A stretch of 64,000 nucleotides of DNA from Opitutus sp. GAS368 (lineage in GTDB: Bacteria > Verrucomicrobiota > Verrucomicrobiia > Opitutales > Opitutaceae): positions 2,140,291 to 2,204,290 of the forward strand of contig NZ_LT629735.1 in NCBI RefSeq assembly GCF_900104925.1, read 5' to 3'. The position numbers were made by a program, and so were the translations under genes. The stretch's first letter is position 1; every line of letters starts with the position of its first letter. The notes below the pieces were generated by a model. The model saw only the letters and a list, made by a program, of their open reading frames with translations, did no database searches and was not told the DNA's origin. Of this stretch, positions 46,039 through 55,914 are shown piece after piece.

Positions 46039-47340
<1,302 letters not shown>

Positions 47341-47358
47341 TTATCGCTTACAGCCAGG

Positions 47359-47368
47359 GAGTATCGCT
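47359..47368. other. Left half of the split target palindrome and 5-bp duplication
   Basis: GAGTATCGCT at the outer left edge of the element. TCGCT (47364-47368) recurs at 54061-54065. Joining the flanks restores arms GGAGTATCGCT and AGCGATACTCC around one C. Confidence 0.75.
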
Positions 47369-47473
47369 TGCCAGCTGACAATAATGTCGGGTCGTTCACA
47401 TGCGCGTAAGTGATTGATGAGTCGTGATACCTCCCATTGAAGTCGAGTTGTTCCCCTGCCATTAAAGTTGAGC
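47369..47473. repeat. Left terminal repeat region of the element
   Basis: TGCCAGCTGACAATAATGTC, then degenerate copies TGATTGATGAGTCGTG, CCCATTGAAGTCGAG and GCCATTAAAGTTGAG. Read inversely, this matches the order and spacing at the right end. Bases 47474-47669 hold nothing else I can recognise except the presumed gajA promoter. Confidence 0.7.
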
Positions 47474-47669
47474 CACTAGAAACACAGAGTTCTCAAAAGC
47501 AGGGTGTGGGAGTGCCTGCACGGACCATTCGGGCTTTGCCTCGTGGCTGCGGCCGTCTACAGTCGCTCTTCGGGCCAAAATAGTTTGAATCGTAATTCGA
47601 CTACCTCTCAGAGACCCCTGCTGCCCGACCTGACGGAAGGGACGCCAGTTGTTCCTGCGCTCCTTCCGC

Positions 47670-49577
47670 ATGCACCTGCTACAGATCTCCGTTAAAAACT
47701 TTCGCTGCCTAAAAGAAGTTACAATTACGCTCTCTAGCGGGTTGAACGTCCTCGTTGGCGAGAACAACATCGGCAAAACGGCGATTCTCGACGCGATCCG
47801 CGCCGCACTCGGTCCGGCGGCTAGCACCGGCGAGCCGCTGAAAATCGGGCCCGATGACCGTCACCGCCAGTCCGACGGCGCCTATCTCAACGAGGCGATC
47901 CAGATTTCGCTCGTGTTCGCGAACCTGTCGGCGGACGAGCAGGCGCAGTTCATCGACATCTTGAATTACAATGCAGCGGAACCGGCCAAATCCACGGCGC
48001 AACTGAATTTCCGCTGGCACTGGAACGAGAAGACCAAGCACTACTCGATCAACCGCTGGGGCGGAACGGCGGCATTCTCCGAAAACGCCATTCCCGAGGA
48101 CGTGCTGCAAATGTTGCCAGTCACGTTGCTCGGGGCACTGCGGGATGCGACCGCGGCGCTGCAACCCGGCCGCAACAGTCGGTTAGCGCACTTGCTTGAA
48201 GCGAGAGCGAACGACGTGGACAAGGCGGCCATTGTTGAGTTCGGCAAGACGACAAACGAGGCGTTGGAAAAAAATGATCTGGTCAGCAAGACTCAGGAGC
48301 ACATCACGAAGACCCTCGGCCAGGTGACGGGAAAGGTCTTCGCGCAAAAGACCGCTATCAAGACTTCGCCGCCCGAGTTCGAGAAGATCATCCAGGGCTT
48401 GCGCCTTGTCGTATCCCGCCTGCTGCCGGGAAACGTCGAGATCACTGACGAACTCCGCGCAAACGGGCTCGGTTTCAATAATCTCTTTTATATCGCAACC
48501 GTCATCCTTGAACTGAATGCGCAGACCAACGCGTTGCTGCCGCTGCTGCTGGTCGAGGAACCTGAGGCGCATTTGCATCCTCAGCTGCAGACGCTGCTGG
48601 CGGATTTTCTCGCTGACCCCAAGGAGTTGCACCCTGTGAAGGTGCAGTCCCTCATCACCTCCCATTCCCCGACAATCGCCGCGCATGTGCCGCCGGAACG
48701 GCTGCGGGTGCTGCATATGACGAAAGACCGCAAGTTGCATTGCGCGTCATTCGATGCGTGTGGCTTGACCGTGCCACAATTGGCGCAGGTTCGCCGGATG
48801 CTGGATGTGACACGTGCATCGCTGCTCTTCTCTCGCGGGGTGATTCTGGTAGAAGGAATCACTGAGGCTCTCTTGCTTCCTGTGCTCGCCCGTCGCGCCG
48901 GCACGAATTTAGAGGAGAACGGCATCTCCGTCGTGCCGGTTTGCGGCGTGGATTTCGGAACCATCGCCGCACTTTTCGACGGGAAAGGTCTCCAGATCCC
49001 GCTCGCCCTCGTAACCGACGGCGATCCGGGCACCGAAGACGACACCGAGCAGGCAGAACCGGTTGGCGAAGCTGCGGCCGCCGCCGCGCTGGGGGAGCCC
49101 GCAGAAGTGCCGTGGCACCAGCGGGAACCCCGGCGTGATCCCGCGGGCGTTTTGATCGTATGTGCCCGAGTCGTGAAGCTGAAGGAGACTTACGCAGGCA
49201 AGCCGCTCGTTGGCGTGTTTCATTCTGACGTTACTTTGGAATACAGTCTGGCCAAGGCCGACACCCATAATCCCCAAGTCATCTGCGACACCTGGACTTC
49301 ACTCTTTGCCGGCCAGCCGCGAACGTTTAACCAGGCGAAACTGGATGCGTGCGGCGGGAACCACGACCTTCAGGCCTTGGCGATATGGCGCGGTATTTGC
49401 CAAGCCAAGACCACCCGCACGAAGGCGGAATTCGCGCAGGCCCTGGCGACCAGGCTCGACCAGAAGCACCCTGACGGCACCTACGTTGTCGCACCTGACG
49501 CCTTCGTCATTCCGCCCTACCTAACCGCAGCCTTCACCCATGTCCTCACCGCCCCAGCCGCCGAAGGAGCCCACTGA
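47670..49577 (+). CDS. gajA: Gabija defence nuclease GajA (OLD-family ATPase-TOPRIM)
   Basis: A 635-aa protein starting MHLLQISVKNFRCLKEVTI (ATG 47670; TTG 47649 is an alternative). The ABC-type ATPase part has Walker A VGENNIGKTAILDAI near residue 30. Signature/Walker B parts are LLLVEEPEAHLHPQLQTLL and SLITSHSPTIAAHVP. The C-terminal TOPRIM nuclease shows ILVEGITEALLLPVLARR (Glu ~395) and ALVTDGDPG (Asp ~449-451). OLD nuclease next to a UvrD-like helicase is the Gabija anti-phage pair; GajA nicks DNA when nucleotides are depleted. The protein is somewhat longer than the ~580-aa reference. Its end overlaps gajB by 38 bases. Confidence 0.87.
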   Translation: MHLLQISVKNFRCLKEVTITLSSGLNVLVGENNIGKTAILDAIRAALGPAASTGEPLKIGPDDRHRQSDGAYLNEAIQISLVFANLSADEQAQFIDILNYNAAEPAKSTAQLNFRWHWNEKTKHYSINRWGGTAAFSENAIPEDVLQMLPVTLLGALRDATAALQPGRNSRLAHLLEARANDVDKAAIVEFGKTTNEALEKNDLVSKTQEHITKTLGQVTGKVFAQKTAIKTSPPEFEKIIQGLRLVVSRLLPGNVEITDELRANGLGFNNLFYIATVILELNAQTNALLPLLLVEEPEAHLHPQLQTLLADFLADPKELHPVKVQSLITSHSPTIAAHVPPERLRVLHMTKDRKLHCASFDACGLTVPQLAQVRRMLDVTRASLLFSRGVILVEGITEALLLPVLARRAGTNLEENGISVVPVCGVDFGTIAALFDGKGLQIPLALVTDGDPGTEDDTEQAEPVGEAAAAAALGEPAEVPWHQREPRRDPAGVLIVCARVVKLKETYAGKPLVGVFHSDVTLEYSLAKADTHNPQVICDTWTSLFAGQPRTFNQAKLDACGGNHDLQALAIWRGICQAKTTRTKAEFAQALATRLDQKHPDGTYVVAPDAFVIPPYLTAAFTHVLTAPAAEGAH

Positions 49578-51321
49578 GGAACAGAACGCGGTGCTGATCT
49601 CACCCGCACGCGTTCGCGTGGTCCGCGCCTGTCCCGGCGCGGGCAAGACGGAGATGTTCGTCGAAGCGATTCGGCGGGAGCTGAAGTCGTGGAACAAGCC
49701 GGCCGGAGGCGTCGCGGCGCTTTCTTTTACAAATGTCGCCCGCCAGACGATTGAGGCCCGGGTCGGCGGCGTCGTGGGCGCCCCGCATTTCATCGGGACG
49801 CTCGATGGGTTCGCGTTTCGTTTTGTGGTGAAGCCTTTTGGCCATCTCGTGGGGTTACCGGCCGGAGGCGTGCGCCTGTTTCCCGCGGCCATGTGCGCCC
49901 AGTTCACGCAGCCGACCGTGCAGGTCGGAGGCCAGCCCAAGGAGCGAGCCACGCTGTTCCAGGTTCATTTTTCCGGCGTCGAGAAGAAGCTTCCGGTCCT
50001 CCGGGCCGAGGCCGCGTATCGTCAAATCACCGTTCCCGCGGAGAGGGTCCAGGAAATATTTGACGCGAAGAAGAACTACTGGGCCAAGACCGGAATCGTG
50101 ACCCATTCCGACTGTCATTTTCTCGCCGCGGCGATTCTCAAAAAAGGTGGCGCGGCGGTCCGAGGGCTAATTGCCCGGCGATTTCCCGTCATCTTCATCG
50201 ACGAACTTCAGGACACCGGATTCTTCCTCGCCCGAACCTTCGTCAGGCTATGTGAGGATCCCGGAATCAAAGCACTGGTTGTTGGTGATCCTAACCAGGC
50301 TATCTATGGATTCGGCGGCGCGAGCCCCACGATTTTTGACGATTTCCAAGCACTGGAGGGGGCGACGCCATTTGCGCTCACGCTGTCGCAGCGGTGCCCC
50401 AAGAAGGTTTCTCAGGTTGTGTCCGCTCTGAGTTATTCTAAGGCCCCGGTTAACGCCCGGCCCGATGCGGCCGACGGCGAACTGGCGCTGGTGGTGCACT
50501 CGCTCGCGATACCGAAACTGCTGCCGCCACAGGCGGCATTCTTGCGCGGCTTGGGTGTCGGAACTAGTCTGGCGATCATTAGCCGGCGGACAACGACCGC
50601 CAATTCGCTTCGTGGCGCCATCATTCGCGACGAGTTCTGTGGCCGTTCCGGCGTGGCGCGAAAGATCAACCTCGCGGCGGAATACCTGGCCAATGGCGAC
50701 CCGGCTACTGCGGTCACCATCATCGACCGGGAGTTGTGTCGGGTCGTGTTCGACGATCCCCAGGCGGGGCTCGAAGAACGAAAGGGGAAGGGTATCACTC
50801 CGGCGCAATGGCGGGCCGCCATCTTCGGGATTCTGACTGCGGCCCTCGCGAAGGTGGAGGGTGAGACGTGGAACGCCTGGGTTCAGCGCATCAAGGCTGC
50901 GGTCCAAGCGGCATGTGTATCGCTGGGCTGGCAGCTCAACGAGACCAGTGGCCTGAAAGCCTACATGATTTGCAACGAAACTGGCAACGCTCCGCGAAAC
51001 CAGCTGATCGAGATCCCCGTCGCCCCATTGTGGCCGGTAGGCGATACCGTCAGCACCATCCATAAGGTCAAAGGGGCGGAGTTCGAGACCGTCATCGTTT
51101 TCGCGCCGAAGCCCTCTAAGGGGCATCCGTGTCCCGCCAAGGAATGGTGGTCGGACGAAGCGCAGGGTGAGGAGCGGCGGGTGGGGTTTGTCGGTGTTTC
51201 CCGGGCCAAACAAAAGCTCATCTTGTGCGTGCACGTCTCAACGCTGAAGGAATTGCAGGCGAAGCAACCTGAATTTGTCGCCCTGTTCGGCGAGCCCATC
51301 CCCATGCCGGCGGGCGCGTAA
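49540..51321 (+). CDS. gajB: Gabija defence helicase GajB (UvrD/REP-like)
   Basis: A 593-aa superfamily-1 helicase. Motif I is VVRACPGAGKTEMFVEAI, motif Ia ALSFTNVARQTIEARV, motif II VIFIDELQDTG, motif III VVGDPNQAIYGFGGA, motif IV LSQRCPKKVSQVV, and motif V-like VSTIHKVKGAEFETVIVFAP. The C-terminus has VGVSRAKQKLILCVH (motif VI). It starts within gajA (38-base overlap), so the two are translationally coupled. In Gabija, GajB activates or assists GajA. It is longer than the ~494-aa reference. Confidence 0.87.
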   Translation: MSSPPQPPKEPTEEQNAVLISPARVRVVRACPGAGKTEMFVEAIRRELKSWNKPAGGVAALSFTNVARQTIEARVGGVVGAPHFIGTLDGFAFRFVVKPFGHLVGLPAGGVRLFPAAMCAQFTQPTVQVGGQPKERATLFQVHFSGVEKKLPVLRAEAAYRQITVPAERVQEIFDAKKNYWAKTGIVTHSDCHFLAAAILKKGGAAVRGLIARRFPVIFIDELQDTGFFLARTFVRLCEDPGIKALVVGDPNQAIYGFGGASPTIFDDFQALEGATPFALTLSQRCPKKVSQVVSALSYSKAPVNARPDAADGELALVVHSLAIPKLLPPQAAFLRGLGVGTSLAIISRRTTTANSLRGAIIRDEFCGRSGVARKINLAAEYLANGDPATAVTIIDRELCRVVFDDPQAGLEERKGKGITPAQWRAAIFGILTAALAKVEGETWNAWVQRIKAAVQAACVSLGWQLNETSGLKAYMICNETGNAPRNQLIEIPVAPLWPVGDTVSTIHKVKGAEFETVIVFAPKPSKGHPCPAKEWWSDEAQGEERRVGFVGVSRAKQKLILCVHVSTLKELQAKQPEFVALFGEPIPMPAGA

Positions 51322-51330
51322 CCCTTTGCC

Positions 51331-52200
51331 ATGAATTTCGGGACCAATCCTCCGCTTTCTCACGGCTCGTTCGAAACGTCGGCCCTCATCATGCCTGCGG
51401 ATATTGGGACGATCAAGCCGCTGCACCAATTCGGTCCGTCGACCGTCTACGTGCACGGCGCCGTCATGTCGTTTGTCGGCTATCGGGGCATTCAGGTCTC
51501 TCGCGTTTCACTGAAGGAAATGTGTCATGCCCAGTATGACTGCGCCATTCTTGTAACATATGTTCCCCGCAGGAAACGAAAGGAAAGTTCTTACATCGAG
51601 ACCAGCCACGCTTCGACTGTCATTGTCGAGGGCTGGATCGACGAGCCGCTGCCCGCTCCCCACGATGCCACGGGTGCGGCGCGTCACATGGGTTTCGACA
51701 AAGAGTGGGACCGCGAGTTTGGATTGTGGCTCGATACGATGTGCCGGCGGTCGGAGTGTAAGATCTTGTCCGACCTGCGGGGGCACGATGCCCGGGCTCG
51801 CAAGCCAGGTCCACCCGCACCGTCTCAGCCACCTGGACAACCGCCACCGGCTGGGCCGGCAGCACTGGCGAAACCCGTCCTGCGCTTCGTCGAGGGAGCG
51901 GCGACCGAAATTGTGCAGACGCGCTACGAGCGTGACCCGGCAGCCCGGGCCTCGTGTCTCGCGCATTATGGGTTCGTTTGCCAGGTGTGTGGCTTTGATT
52001 TCGAGCGACGCTTCGGGGAGTTGGGCGCCGGTTTCATCCATGTGCATCACCTCGAGCAACTCGCCGTCACGGCCCAGGAACATACGGTCGATCCGATCAG
52101 GGACCTGAGGCCCGTCTGTCCGAATTGTCACGCGATGCTGCACCGCCGCAATCCGCCCCTGACGCCAGACGAATTGCGCGCGTTGATGCGCCTGAATTGA
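51331..52200 (+). CDS. HNH endonuclease-domain protein, third gene of the defence operon
   Basis: A 289-aa protein starting 9 bases after gajB. The C-terminal ~100 residues are a zinc-stabilised HNH domain: YGFVCQVCGFDFERRFGELGAGFIHVHHLEQLA, then DPIRDLRPVCPNCHAMLHRRNPP, with two CxxC pairs and the H-H-N/H catalytic residues. The N-terminal ~150 residues (FGPSTVYVHGAVMSFVGYRGIQVSRV) form an unrecognised, probably sensory or DNA-binding, domain, followed by a Pro-rich linker. Tight spacing with gajAB suggests a functional extension of Gabija. Confidence 0.82.
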   Translation: MNFGTNPPLSHGSFETSALIMPADIGTIKPLHQFGPSTVYVHGAVMSFVGYRGIQVSRVSLKEMCHAQYDCAILVTYVPRRKRKESSYIETSHASTVIVEGWIDEPLPAPHDATGAARHMGFDKEWDREFGLWLDTMCRRSECKILSDLRGHDARARKPGPPAPSQPPGQPPPAGPAALAKPVLRFVEGAATEIVQTRYERDPAARASCLAHYGFVCQVCGFDFERRFGELGAGFIHVHHLEQLAVTAQEHTVDPIRDLRPVCPNCHAMLHRRNPPLTPDELRALMRLN

Positions 52201-52487
52201 TCCTCAAATCGCTCGGAAAAATTCCACCGGGATGGCAGGCGTTCTCCGTTCAAGGGCGTGGGAGCTGGCGGGACAAGCGAAACAGCTGCCGAGGTCACCT
52301 GCGCACCGGATCGTGTCTTACCCGTAGTGCACTAACCGGGATCCCGGATCCTGCTCTAGGTGAAGGTCAGGTATTGTGCGCAGTTTCGTGAGCCGCAATA
52401 CGGCGACCTCATTTCACCCTCCGTGTAGGTCGAGCATAACCAGTCTTGGTTTCGAAACCACCGGACCCCTGTTCTGGCCCGTCGGCG

Positions 52488-53252
52488 CTAAAGTTCGACG
52501 ACAAGGTCAGGGCGGAAACCGGCGCACTCGGGGCCTGCCGAAGCGAGGTAGCCAAACGCGTTGTTCAGCACCCTAGTTTTTCCGATGATGTAATCGCGGC
52601 ATTCGTGAATATGCCCATGAACCCACAACGCCGGGCCTCGCTCGCAAATGAGTTCATCCATGTTCGAGACATACGCTGCGCTGATGGGGTCCAATTCCTT
52701 TCCGGTCTGGGCGGACTTGGGCGAAGGAGCGTGGTGAGTGATGACCACAGAGTGCGCGGGATCCCCTGCTGTTAGGAATTGATTGAGGGCCAGACGTGTG
52801 TCGGCATGGAGAAGCGCGGTGTGCTTGGGCTGCAGTCGGCTGGTGTCTTGACGGCGAATTTTCCGGTAGTCATTCATGCCAGTTCCTTTTGAGCCGGCCA
52901 TAAGCATGGCGGTTGGTCGGTCGCCCAAAAGGTCGAAGTCGGTCCACAGAGTGGCGCCGAAAAAGCGGTAACCCTTCAACTCGTAGGTTTCGTTTTCGAG
53001 GATGATGACGTTCGAACCCGTTGCGGCTTCTCGTAGCTTTTCGTGCAGTCGACCAATACGCTCATCGTAGTGCTCATGATTACCCGCGATGTAGAGAATG
53101 GGGTTATCGGGAAATCTTTGCCTTGCCCAAGCGACGCCCTTCACGCCGCGATCGATGTCGCCAGCGAGGACCACGACGTCCGCGGCGGCGTCCGGTAGAT
53201 CAACGGATCCGAATTCCCGATGGAGATCGCTGAGGACACGAATTCTCATCAA
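52488..53252 (-). CDS. Calcineurin-like metallophosphoesterase
   Basis: A 254-aa phosphoesterase, starting MMRIRVLSDLHREFG. The five metal motifs are visible: SDLHREF, VVLAGDIDRG, IAGNHEHYD, VVITHHAPSPK and ALWVHGHIHECRDY. Such proteins act on nucleotides, cyclic nucleotides or DNA. It converges with the HNH gene inside the element; the 287-base gap between them holds nothing I recognise. It may be a further defence or regulatory component. Confidence 0.85.
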   Translation of the reverse strand: MMRIRVLSDLHREFGSVDLPDAAADVVVLAGDIDRGVKGVAWARQRFPDNPILYIAGNHEHYDERIGRLHEKLREAATGSNVIILENETYELKGYRFFGATLWTDFDLLGDRPTAMLMAGSKGTGMNDYRKIRRQDTSRLQPKHTALLHADTRLALNQFLTAGDPAHSVVITHHAPSPKSAQTGKELDPISAAYVSNMDELICERGPALWVHGHIHECRDYIIGKTRVLNNAFGYLASAGPECAGFRPDLVVEL

Positions 53253-53302
53253 TGAGCAAACCCTGCAGGTCTAGCCGACCTAATCAAGAAATCCGTCGCC
53301 CT

Positions 53303-53557
53303 TTAGATGTGGCGGAAGCACTCAAAGTTGGCAGGCGCTGAGTTAGCCAGCCGGACCATTTGGTCATTTTTTTCCATAGGAAATCCCAGACCACCCGCAG
53401 CGGTGAGCACTTCTTGGATTCGAACCGCTCGCGCTTTCGGCGCGGTGGCGGCCAACAAGCGCGTCAAGTAGCTGGCACCTTTGAGTTGCTTGCGCTCCAC
53501 GGTCAGAAAGTGGAGGGCGGCGAAACCATTGCCAACGATGTCGATCACCTTGATCAC
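53303..53557 (-). CDS. Small hypothetical protein, 84 aa
   Basis: It reads MIKVIDIVGNGFAALHFLTVERKQL, SYLTRLLAATAPKARAVRIQEVLTAAGG and FPMEKNDQMVRLANSAPANFECFRHI. It was not recognised. It lies upstream of the metallophosphoesterase on the same strand, with 50 bases between, and could be an antitoxin-like partner or a fragment. Confidence 0.4.
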   Translation of the reverse strand: MIKVIDIVGNGFAALHFLTVERKQLKGASYLTRLLAATAPKARAVRIQEVLTAAGGLGFPMEKNDQMVRLANSAPANFECFRHI

Positions 53558-53742
53558 CCAGGGAGCGACGGCAGCCCCTTCAAACTGGAAAACGGGGAAC
53601 AGGTACGAGAGCCTTGGGCACGCGTCGGGCTGCCGGAACTATGCCCTTACGCTCAAATGTGGAGAACTTGGGGACTGGAGGGTCGAACGCCTCGGCGGCT
53701 GAGCGGAGACAATCATTCGATCGGGTAGGCTATCTACAAAAA

Positions 53743-53769
53743 GAAGGCCGCAGGGTTGCTGCGGCCTTC
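53743..53769. terminator. Hairpin GAAGGCCGCAG/CTGCGGCCTTC
   Basis: An 11-bp perfect stem with a 5-base loop in the right part of the element. It shares the GGCCGCAG stem core with the hairpin at 53915-53944. The left side follows AAAAA, so it could terminate a minus-strand transcript. Between 53558 and 53742 no convincing gene was found. Confidence 0.55.
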
Positions 53770-53914
53770 GCTCGACGATTAAACAGGATTAAAAGGCGGG
53801 GAAACGGGATTAAAGGCGGCAAACACCACTAAAGGCTTCGACCACAAGCAACCGGACAAGGAAGCTACCTCGCAAGATAACACGCAAATAACGAACGTTT
53901 TGTTGGGTAAAAGA

Positions 53915-53944
53915 TTGGCCGCAGGAACAAAATCCTGCGGCCAA
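53915..53944. other. Hairpin TTGGCCGCAGGA/TCCTGCGGCCAA
   Basis: A 12-bp perfect stem with loop ACAAAA, just inside the right-end repeat array of the element. Confidence 0.65.
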
Positions 53945-53946
53945 AT

Positions 53947-54060
53947 GGCGACCCGACTTTAATGTTCAGGCGACCCGACTTTAATGTTCAGGCGACTCGA
54001 CTTTAATGGGAGCTAACCACGACATTAATGTCTGCGTCCCGACATTAATGTCAGCTGGCA
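53947..54060. repeat. Right terminal repeat array of the element
   Basis: Two exact 22-bp direct repeats start at 53947 and 53969 (GGCGACCCGACTTTAATGTT, then CA), followed by a third (GGCGACTCGACTTTAATGGG). Then come CCACGACATTAATGTC and CCCGACATTAATGTCAGCTG, the latter forming the terminus. The spacing of about 22 bases suits transposase binding. Before this array, 53775-53880 has AT-richer spaced copies of GGATTAAAGGCGG. Confidence 0.8.
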
Positions 54061-54064
54061 TCGC

Positions 54065-55810
54065 TCAGCGATACTCCTCGTTCGTGTTCGCGTTGATGAT
54101 TTTGAAGTTTTCGACGTGATAATTCGGATCAGCCCTAAAGGCCAGTTTGATGCCGAAGGTCTTCTCGATGCGGACGAGCAGCTCGGAGTCCTCGACGCGG
54201 AGGCGTTCGAGGATCGAGGGGTGCACGTGGACGCGGAGCGAGTATTCCTTGCCGTCCTTCCGGGCCTGCAGGCGGCGGGCGACCGAGGACAGCTTGCGCT
54301 GCAACTCGACCGACATTGTCGTGGCCGATTTCACCACCGCGCGGCCGCGGCAGTAGGGGCAGCTGGTGTAGAGGTTGGCCGAGAGCGACTCCTGCTGGCG
54401 CTGGCGGGTCATCTGCATGATGCCGAGCGACGAGATGGGCAGGATGTGCGTCTTGGCCTTGTCCTCCGACATGAGCTCGACCATGCGGTCGTAGACGGCG
54501 TTGCGGTGGCGCCGCTCCTTCATGTCGATGAAGTCCATGATCACGAGGCCGCCGATGTTGCGCAGCCGGATCTGGCGCGAGATCTCCGTGGCCGCCTCCA
54601 TGTTGACCTGGAAGATGGTGTTCTTCTCGTCGCCGGAGCGGCTCTTGTGGGAGCCGGTGTTGACGTCGATGGAGATGAGGGCCTCGGTCTCGTCGATCAC
54701 GATCTCGCCGCCGGAAGGCAGGGGCACGCGGCGCTGGAAGGTCTGCTCGATCTGGCGCTCGATGTTGTAACGCTCGAAGACCGGGATGGAGTCCTTGTAG
54801 TAGACGATCTTGCCCTTGGAGCGGCTGGAGATCTGGCCGACGTATTCCTGGGTGCGCTTGAAGTCGTCCTCGTTGTCCACGAGCACGCGGTCGATGTCCT
54901 CGGTGAGGAAGTCGCGGACGGTGCGCTCGACGATGTCGGGCTCCTGGTAGAGGCAGGCGGGGGCGCGGTCGGTCTCCATCTTGCGCTGGATCTCCGTCCA
55001 CTTGGTGAGGAGGAGGTGCAGGTCGCGGACGAAGTAACGCGGCTTCTTGCCCTCGCCGGCGGTGCGGACGATGACGCCCATGCCCTCGGGGATGGTGAGC
55101 TCGTTGATGAGGGTCTTGAGGCGCTTGCGCTCGAGGGGATCCTCGATTTTGCGGGAGATGCCGCAGCCGTCGGAGAACGGCGTGAGGATGAGGTAGCGGC
55201 CGGGGAGGGACAGATTCGTCGTGGTGCGCGGGCCCTTGGTGCCGATCGGGCCCTTGGTCACCTGGATGACGATGTCGGTGCCCGGCGGGTAGAGGCCGGG
55301 GATGTCCTTGACGGTCGGCTCGGCCTTGCGCGGGCCGGCGTCCTTCTTCTTGTTGACGCGGACGACCTCGACGGAGGAGTCGGCGGCGGCGGGGAGCATG
55401 TCCCAGTAATGGAGGAAGGCGTTCTTGTTGTAGCCGATGTCGACGAAGGCGGCCTTGAGGCCGGGGTCGAGGTTCTTGATGCGGCCCTTGTAGATGCCGC
55501 CGACCATGCGGTTGTCGGAATCGCGCTCGATCTCGAAGCGGTCGAGGGTGCCGTCCACGAGCAGCGCGACGCGCTTCTCGAGGGGCTCGGAGTTGATGAC
55601 GAGTTCGCGGAAGGTGCCCTTTTCCTTCCGGAAAATGCTCAGGATTTTCTGGAGGATGGGCCGGTCGGCGGCGCGTTCCTTGGATTGCTGCCGGAGTTGG
55701 TCGGCAGTGAGAGGCTCGCTGTGCTTCTGCGGCGGGGGTTGGGCGAGTTCCTCTTCATGGTGTGAGGCGGCGTCCGAAGGGGCGCCGGAGTTGGTGGGCT
55801 GGTCGTTCAT
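54065..55810 (-). CDS. rng: Ribonuclease E/G
   Basis: A 581-aa endoribonuclease of RNA processing and decay, start [13 protein letters not shown]. Residues ~1-75 are low-complexity. The S1 domain is [35 protein letters not shown]. The catalytic Asp region shows in [10 protein letters not shown] and [15 protein letters not shown], and the Zn-link CPYCRGRAV is present (CPxCxG). The RNase-H-like and small domains finish the protein. It has no long C-terminal degradosome scaffold. The gene ends at the transposon border, which follows the stop codon directly. Confidence 0.94.
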
Positions 55811-55914
55811 GGTGGGGTTGATCCCGGGTGGTTGTAACGGGGCGCCCGTGTCCAGCAGGCTGTGCGCAGGAGATTCCGGCAGAGCGGTCAATATGGCGTG
55901 GCAGGTGACTCATG

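Follow-up and report, generated by a model that had tools for sequence, protein, structure and literature searches.

A 6,692-bp element carrying a Gabija defence system was found directly behind the rng gene of Opitutus sp. GAS368, within a 64,000-nucleotide stretch of contig NZ_LT629735.1 (positions 2,140,291 to 2,204,290; hereafter the window, in which coordinates are counted from its first base). With a probability of roughly 0.88, it represents a non-autonomous Tn7-like element, devoid of tns genes, for which rng-directed machinery was supplied in trans or by its own autonomous ancestor. The element has Tn7-type ends and a target-site duplication (TSD), lies at an exact site behind rng in the orientation seen in related elements, and encodes no Tns protein; the empty site is preserved in a sister species, and related autonomous elements occupy the same site in other genomes. 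We infer that insertion took place by TnsD-directed cut-and-paste transposition, with TnsABC acting in trans or expressed from an operon since deleted.

The borders, end structures and target were located as follows.

47369-54060: the whole transposase-less Tn7-like element, 6,692 bp, G+C 59% against 67% in the rest of the window.
47364-47368: left copy of the TSD, TCGCT, read from the sequence.
54061-54065: right copy of the TSD, TCGCT, ending on the final base of the rng stop codon (54065).
47369-47480: left end, with terminal TGCCAGCTGACAATAATGTC and three spaced candidate TnsB-type sites starting at 47377, 47433 and 47458, + strand, pointing inward.
53954-54060: right end, with terminal TGTCAGCTGGCA and five tandem candidate TnsB-type sites at 20-22-bp spacing, - strand, pointing inward (first bases 54052, 54032, 54010, 53988 and 53966).
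53915-53944: predicted hairpin TTGGCCGCAGGA-N6-TCCTGCGGCCAA, just internal to the right-end array.
47358-47368: left arm, GGAGTATCGCT, of a palindrome with its other arm at 54067-54077 and its centre at 54066.
54065-55891, - strand: rng (RNase G/E family), the target gene, intact (Pfam RNase_E_G, 4.9e-101).

The terminal inverted repeat measured 33 nt with 85% complementarity and was the longest inverted pair of the region. The outer 23 nt of the two ends agreed at 22 of 23 positions, with TG...CA termini, and reading inward from each terminus the layout was TG-N6-GACAttAAtGTCG (TG-N6-GACAttAAtG). A scan for 13-nt sites matching the end consensus at at least 10 positions detected three inward sites at the left end, five at the right end and only two elsewhere in the element; the 15 matches in total (sites read on both strands counted) compare with a mean of 1.5 and a maximum of 5 in 50 shuffles. 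Inverted TG...CA ends with TnsB-type arrays spaced by about 20-22 bp on both sides, a 5-bp TSD, and a fixed distance behind a conserved gene in constant orientation were all found, as expected of a Tn7-like element. TnsA, TnsB, TnsC and TniQ/TnsD are not encoded within it, and the element is therefore classed only as non-autonomous Tn7-like. The original prediction of a transposase-less unit with legible borders, inverted TG...CA ends, subterminal repeat arrays and a TCGCT duplication agreed with these data, including the lack of a transposase in the open reading frames (ORFs). The interval it had assigned, 47359-54067, does contain the element, but it also takes in flanking sequence, both TSD copies and the rng stop codon.

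The TG-N6-GACA scheme also fits the Tn7 left end, TGTGGGCGGACAATAAAG; the 61-nt Tn7 left end was verified on 62 plasmids at at least 99% identity. Tn7 ends contain three left and four right sites (PMC8649781). When the tandem-array pattern was sought in GTDB contigs, 16 loci were obtained, several being Burkholderiales CGACTTTAATG arrays and others unrelated. The Burkholderiales arrays (L010, L012, L014, L015, L018 and L019) immediately adjoin sequence that we take to be the glmS 3' end. They are apparent Tn7-like right ends at attTn7, and gave the first pointer to Tn7.

At the target, the terminal TG of the element lies 7 nt past the last Arg codon of rng. The TSD and the rng stop codon (54065-54067) share their last base, 54065, so that rng remained intact. 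Joining of the flanks without the element and one TCGCT yielded GGAGTATCGCT-C-AGCGATACTCC, a perfect 23-bp palindrome which folds as a hairpin (z=-5.5) and is followed by the terminator-like hairpin of rng; the palindrome had been predicted from the window, and the joined flanks confirmed it. A comparison of rng 3' ends in sister strains, proposed at the same time, revealed the empty site in the sister species G224, where GAGTATCGCTGAGCGATACTC (21 bp) runs uninterrupted at the rng stop. The palindrome is thus real and, being common to G224, predates the insertion. Different perfect palindromes of 21-23 bp were observed at the rng stop codon across related species, that is, in G172 (L077; 23 bp), in G224 (L090) and in the window.

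Related bacteria carry other Tn7-type elements at the same nucleotide, mostly with other defence genes. The region behind rng was examined in genomes of the genus and the family. Six arrays (window, G312, G308, G268, G291 and G538) had the terminal TG exactly 7 nt past the last rng Arg codon and the array end toward rng. A search of 252 family genomes for the rng end plus 4 nt plus TG-N6-GACATTAA, with up to three mismatches, returned three perfect matches (window, G312 and G308) and none for the reversed control. G312, from the same genus, carries TAACGAT followed by TGGATGATGACATTAATGCAGAGTCGCAGACATTAATG at this nucleotide, forming a related array, then a hairpin similar to that at 53915-53944 in the same position, and then cargo for a type IIG restriction-modification (R-M) protein, an HKD/SNF2 helicase, DUF5131 and others; tnsA-tnsB-tnsC-tniQ-tnsD are located about 16 kb past the array and reach the contig end. 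G291, from another genus, has an array behind rng together with TnsA, TnsB, TnsC and two TniQ/TnsD genes, and a profile of the G312 and G291 TnsBs matched the Tn7 TnsB structure 7PIK with E=3e-65.

A second transposase-less element was detected at the same nucleotide in G268, again from the same genus. It is 4,113 bp long (approximately L113 8511-12623), and has a perfect 26-bp inverted repeat, TGTGAGCGGGTAGAAATCATGAGGAG, and a 5-bp TSD of its own, GTTTA. No TniQ was found in the G268 genome. The two main proteins of this element, of 381 and 479 aa, matched no Pfam or PADLOC family and are candidates for an undescribed defence system. The arrays of G308 and G538 also lie behind rng, with distal ends truncated or unresolved; in G538 (L133, G538:C38) a complete HmaA-HmaB-HmaC set follows the array directly. 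A similar-looking end behind rng in G164 (offset 5, TG-N6-GACATTAA) was left out of the count, since neither machinery nor a distal end was found within 20 kb.

Because six arrays stand at +7 nt, two of them with tns operons, and the G268 element has its own TSD, the rng 3' end is, as read from these genomes, a Tn7-type attachment site in Opitutaceae. The TnsDs of G312 and G291 were homologous over nearly full length (26% identity, residues 38-624 of 674 aa). The TniQs of family Tn7-like elements lacking an adjacent rng (G300, G224, G339 and G382) gave alignments to G312 TnsD that were confined to the vicinity of its N-terminal TniQ region; in G224 the Tn7-like operon lies about 0.66 Mb away from the empty rng site. 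The simplest reading is that this TnsD lineage would recognise the 3' end of the rng coding sequence in the way that Tn7 TnsD recognises glmS, the proteins of G312 and G291 being two candidates for the predicted rng-reading TnsD. A review of Tn7-like attachment sites names glmS, tRNA genes, parE, guaC, yciA, ffs, rsmJ, yhiN and comM (PMC11406308). A literature search for Tn7 together with rng or RNase G found no report of rng as a Tn7 docking site.

In the proposed mechanism, Tn7-like machinery, present in trans or brought by the autonomous ancestor of the element, would use a TnsD-type TniQ protein to recognise the 3' end of the rng coding sequence. TnsC would then recruit TnsA together with TnsB bound to the 3+5 end sites, and cut-and-paste transposition would set the dense right end beside rng, generating the 5-bp duplication and leaving rng intact. 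With the machinery now absent, the Gabija cargo would stay fixed in this safe site unless the cell acquires a compatible rng-directed Tn7-like element.

The element had originally been taken for a non-autonomous IS21-like unit. IS21-family elements likewise have TG...CA termini, several subterminal repeats at their ends and short flanking duplications; nevertheless this assignment is now very unlikely and was abandoned, since the ends are of Tn7 type and every same-site relative with machinery encodes TnsABC and TniQ/TnsD, not IstA/IstB. Repeated use of a single nucleotide downstream of a single gene is also Tn7-type behaviour. No istA/istB was found inside the element, nor elsewhere in the genome with its ends (TGCCAGCTGACATTAATGTC). 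The three identical IS21-model matches in the genome were weak (39.7 bits against a cut-off of 160 bits), and the suggested search for the ends beside an autonomous IS21-like transposase came out negative, as the genome holds no other copy of the ends, and thus none beside these matches. Still less credible is a genomic island that a tyrosine or serine recombinase would have integrated at the 3' end of rng. Integrases commonly target the 3' ends of genes, and G080 and G277 carry duplicated rng 3'-end fragments downstream; however, no recombinase family was represented among the element proteins, and in place of a recombinase with longer att direct repeats we found a duplication of only 5 bp, terminal inverted repeats and TnsB-type arrays.

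It is improbable, if somewhat less so, that the palindrome itself was the target instead of rng, by analogy with Tn5053-type elements, for which inverted-repeat res sites serve as homing targets. The 23-bp palindrome is restored here, is intact in G224 and folds well, and TCGCTGAGCGA and ATCGTTAACGAT are present at the insertions in G538 and G312, respectively. In G308 (TATCGGTAATCAT), G268 (TATCGTTAGTTTA) and G291 (CTGCGCGGGTAAG), however, the same offset was hit in the absence of any such palindrome, and for this reason the palindrome probably belongs to the local makeup of the rng 3' end and is not the general target signal. The feature common to all hit sites is the 3' end of rng.

The machinery for transposition was sought both in the element and in the complete 4.15-Mb genome. 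Six-frame searches with profile hidden Markov models gave no tnsA, tnsB, tnsC or tniQ remnant in the element (best E 0.08, at noise level; positive control E<1e-100), and a Pfam-level family scan gave no transposase or recombinase domain in its ORFs. In the genome, no TniQ was found after scoring of all 16 candidates, and no homologue of G312 TnsD; none was found for G291 TnsB either, with only two candidates scored, so that the TniQ test is the stronger one. PF09299 (Mu-transpos_C) had no match in this genome, but as it had none in the control genomes either, this result carries no weight. Given that neither these homologues nor a tns remnant is present, the element cannot move by itself.

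Several observations weigh against a non-autonomous Tn7-like element served by rng-directed machinery. The element ends were not found elsewhere in the genome at up to three mismatches, the exact ends had no other occurrence in 84,980 GTDB genomes or in IMG/VR, and a plasmid search with the right end gave no match. No autonomous element was thus found to share the terminal 20 nt, whether in the own genome, the GTDB genomes or IMG/VR, and a trans-acting partner is without a candidate sharing these ends; mobility from elsewhere is accordingly something we infer. The element is known from a single copy, and its mobility after loss of tns is therefore unproven. The site core of G312 differs in its second half (GACATTAATGCAGAGTCGCA against GACATTAATGTCGGGACGCA), and the G312 machinery may for this reason fail to recognise the ends in the window. 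The distal end of the G291 element was not found within 20 kb, and that of the G312 element is lost at the contig end.

How the element came to lack tns admits two versions of the preferred reading, whose probabilities are not exclusive. At odds only just short of even, a complete rng-directed Tn7-like element lost tnsABC-tniQ in situ by internal deletion, which would make it an immobilised remnant keeping its ends and Gabija, not a mobile non-autonomous unit. Autonomous relatives at the same site (G312 and G291), the non-coding stretches 52201-52487 and 53558-53950 as possible places of gene loss, and the lack of another copy showing movement without tns are in favour of such a deletion. No tns or tniQ remnant was left, however, and the second tns-less element at the same nucleotide in G268, with perfect TSD and inverted repeat, is what transposition of tns-less units would produce, although deletion may have occurred independently in both. 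It is about equally likely that the element arrived as a tns-less satellite and that it lost tns later, and the G268 element tips the balance slightly toward satellite arrival. We tentatively propose, as a possibility that falls short of an even chance, that a distinct TnsD lineage reads the 3' end of rng as its dedicated Tn7-type attachment site, and that this site hosts small tns-less defence satellites that would move only with TnsABC-TnsD supplied in trans by a rng-directed Tn7-like element; the window element (Gabija) and the G268 element (genes without family) would be such satellites, and that of G308 perhaps another. If true, defence satellites of Tn7-like transposons exist that are invisible to tnsB-anchored surveys.

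The following genes were identified within the element.

47670-49577, + strand: gajA, OLD-family ATPase plus TOPRIM nuclease, 635 aa from the ATG at 47670 (PADLOC GajA, E=3.2e-149; Pfam AAA_15 and OLD-like_TOPRIM; PDB GajA chains).
49540-51321, + strand: gajB, UvrD-like helicase, 593 aa (PADLOC GajB, E=5.7e-61; UvrD-helicase).
51331-52200, + strand: HNH endonuclease-domain protein, 289 aa, directly 3' of gajB (Pfam HNH, 2.9e-6; PADLOC mREase_IV, 1.6e-5).
52488-53252, - strand: calcineurin-like metallophosphoesterase, 254 aa (Pfam Metallophos, 5.4e-12; PADLOC PDC-S10, 2.8e-14).
53303-53557, - strand: ORF of 84 aa without family match, a doubtful gene.

Gabija had been recognised as the cargo in the original prediction, and this assignment was supported by the PADLOC matches of the adjoining gajA (OLD ATPase-TOPRIM) and gajB (UvrD helicase) and by their motifs: Walker A GENNIGKT and TOPRIM VEGITE/DGD are present in GajA, and DELQ and GDPNQAIY are intact in GajB. 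Among 373 genomes of the order, the best GajA relatives were 32-33% identical and none exceeded 33% over a long stretch; relatives on plasmids were about 32% identical. The low identity within the order and the lower G+C content (59% against 67%) would fit horizontal arrival. Gabija is a known cargo of Tn7-like elements, with 338 cases (PMC8649781).

Tn7-like elements deposit their cargo, defence genes among it, in safe sites, and the rng 3' end offers a nucleotide-exact hotspot for finding defence systems, as Gabija, Hma and the R-M/HKD-SNF2 set were found behind it. The largest survey of Tn7-like cargo consulted scanned around tnsB (PMC8649781); the tns-less elements of the window and G268 would escape such a survey, and are detected by an attachment-site scan for arrays.

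Other features were observed around rng. Repeats of TTAATTCYGTTT(T/C) occur near rng in G188 (L055), G288 (L057), G305 (L081) and the distal flank of G268 (L113); in G188 and G288 they form series of two to three copies, spaced by about 20 bp, in the interval from the rng stop to the terminator. These repeats may be scars of older Tn7-like ends. In G080 (L061, reverse complement at about 219, 507 and 2362) and at G277:C22:78680-78787, fragments of the rng 3' end are duplicated downstream of rng, some then carrying their own rng-like downstream sequence, and TnsB-type arrays are absent, which suggests a different type of insertion or recombination event at rng. Outside the element, window positions 47056-47153 hold a run of a 7-bp tandem repeat (GACCTGA) reading into the N-terminal extension of the neighbouring aldo/keto reductase ORF, and probably lie upstream of its true start.

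Compared with Tn7 and Tn7-like elements (TnsABC plus TniQ/TnsD; attTn7 behind glmS), the window element shares the TG-N6-GACAwwAA ends, three left and several tandem right TnsB-type sites, the 5-bp TSD, a fixed offset behind the 3' end of a conserved gene, the dense end toward that gene, and defence cargo. It differs in lacking tns genes and in its target, which is rng and not glmS; Tn7 inserts some 25 bp downstream of glmS, whereas the insertion here begins at the stop codon. From the IS21 family it is set apart by the lack of istAB with these ends, the Tn7-type machinery of same-site relatives and the single fixed target. The cargo, known here from sequence, resembles other Gabija (GajAB) systems in having both gajA and gajB, with their ATPase, TOPRIM and helicase motifs preserved, but the HNH protein and metallophosphoesterase that follow have a putative link to Gabija, and GajA is only about 32% identical to its plasmid relatives. 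The rng-site element of G312 has the same insertion nucleotide, a related array (GACATTAATG core), a similar internal hairpin and defence-type cargo, but encodes tnsA-tnsB-tnsC-tniQ-tnsD, has another second half in its end sites, and carries R-M/HKD-SNF2 cargo instead of Gabija.

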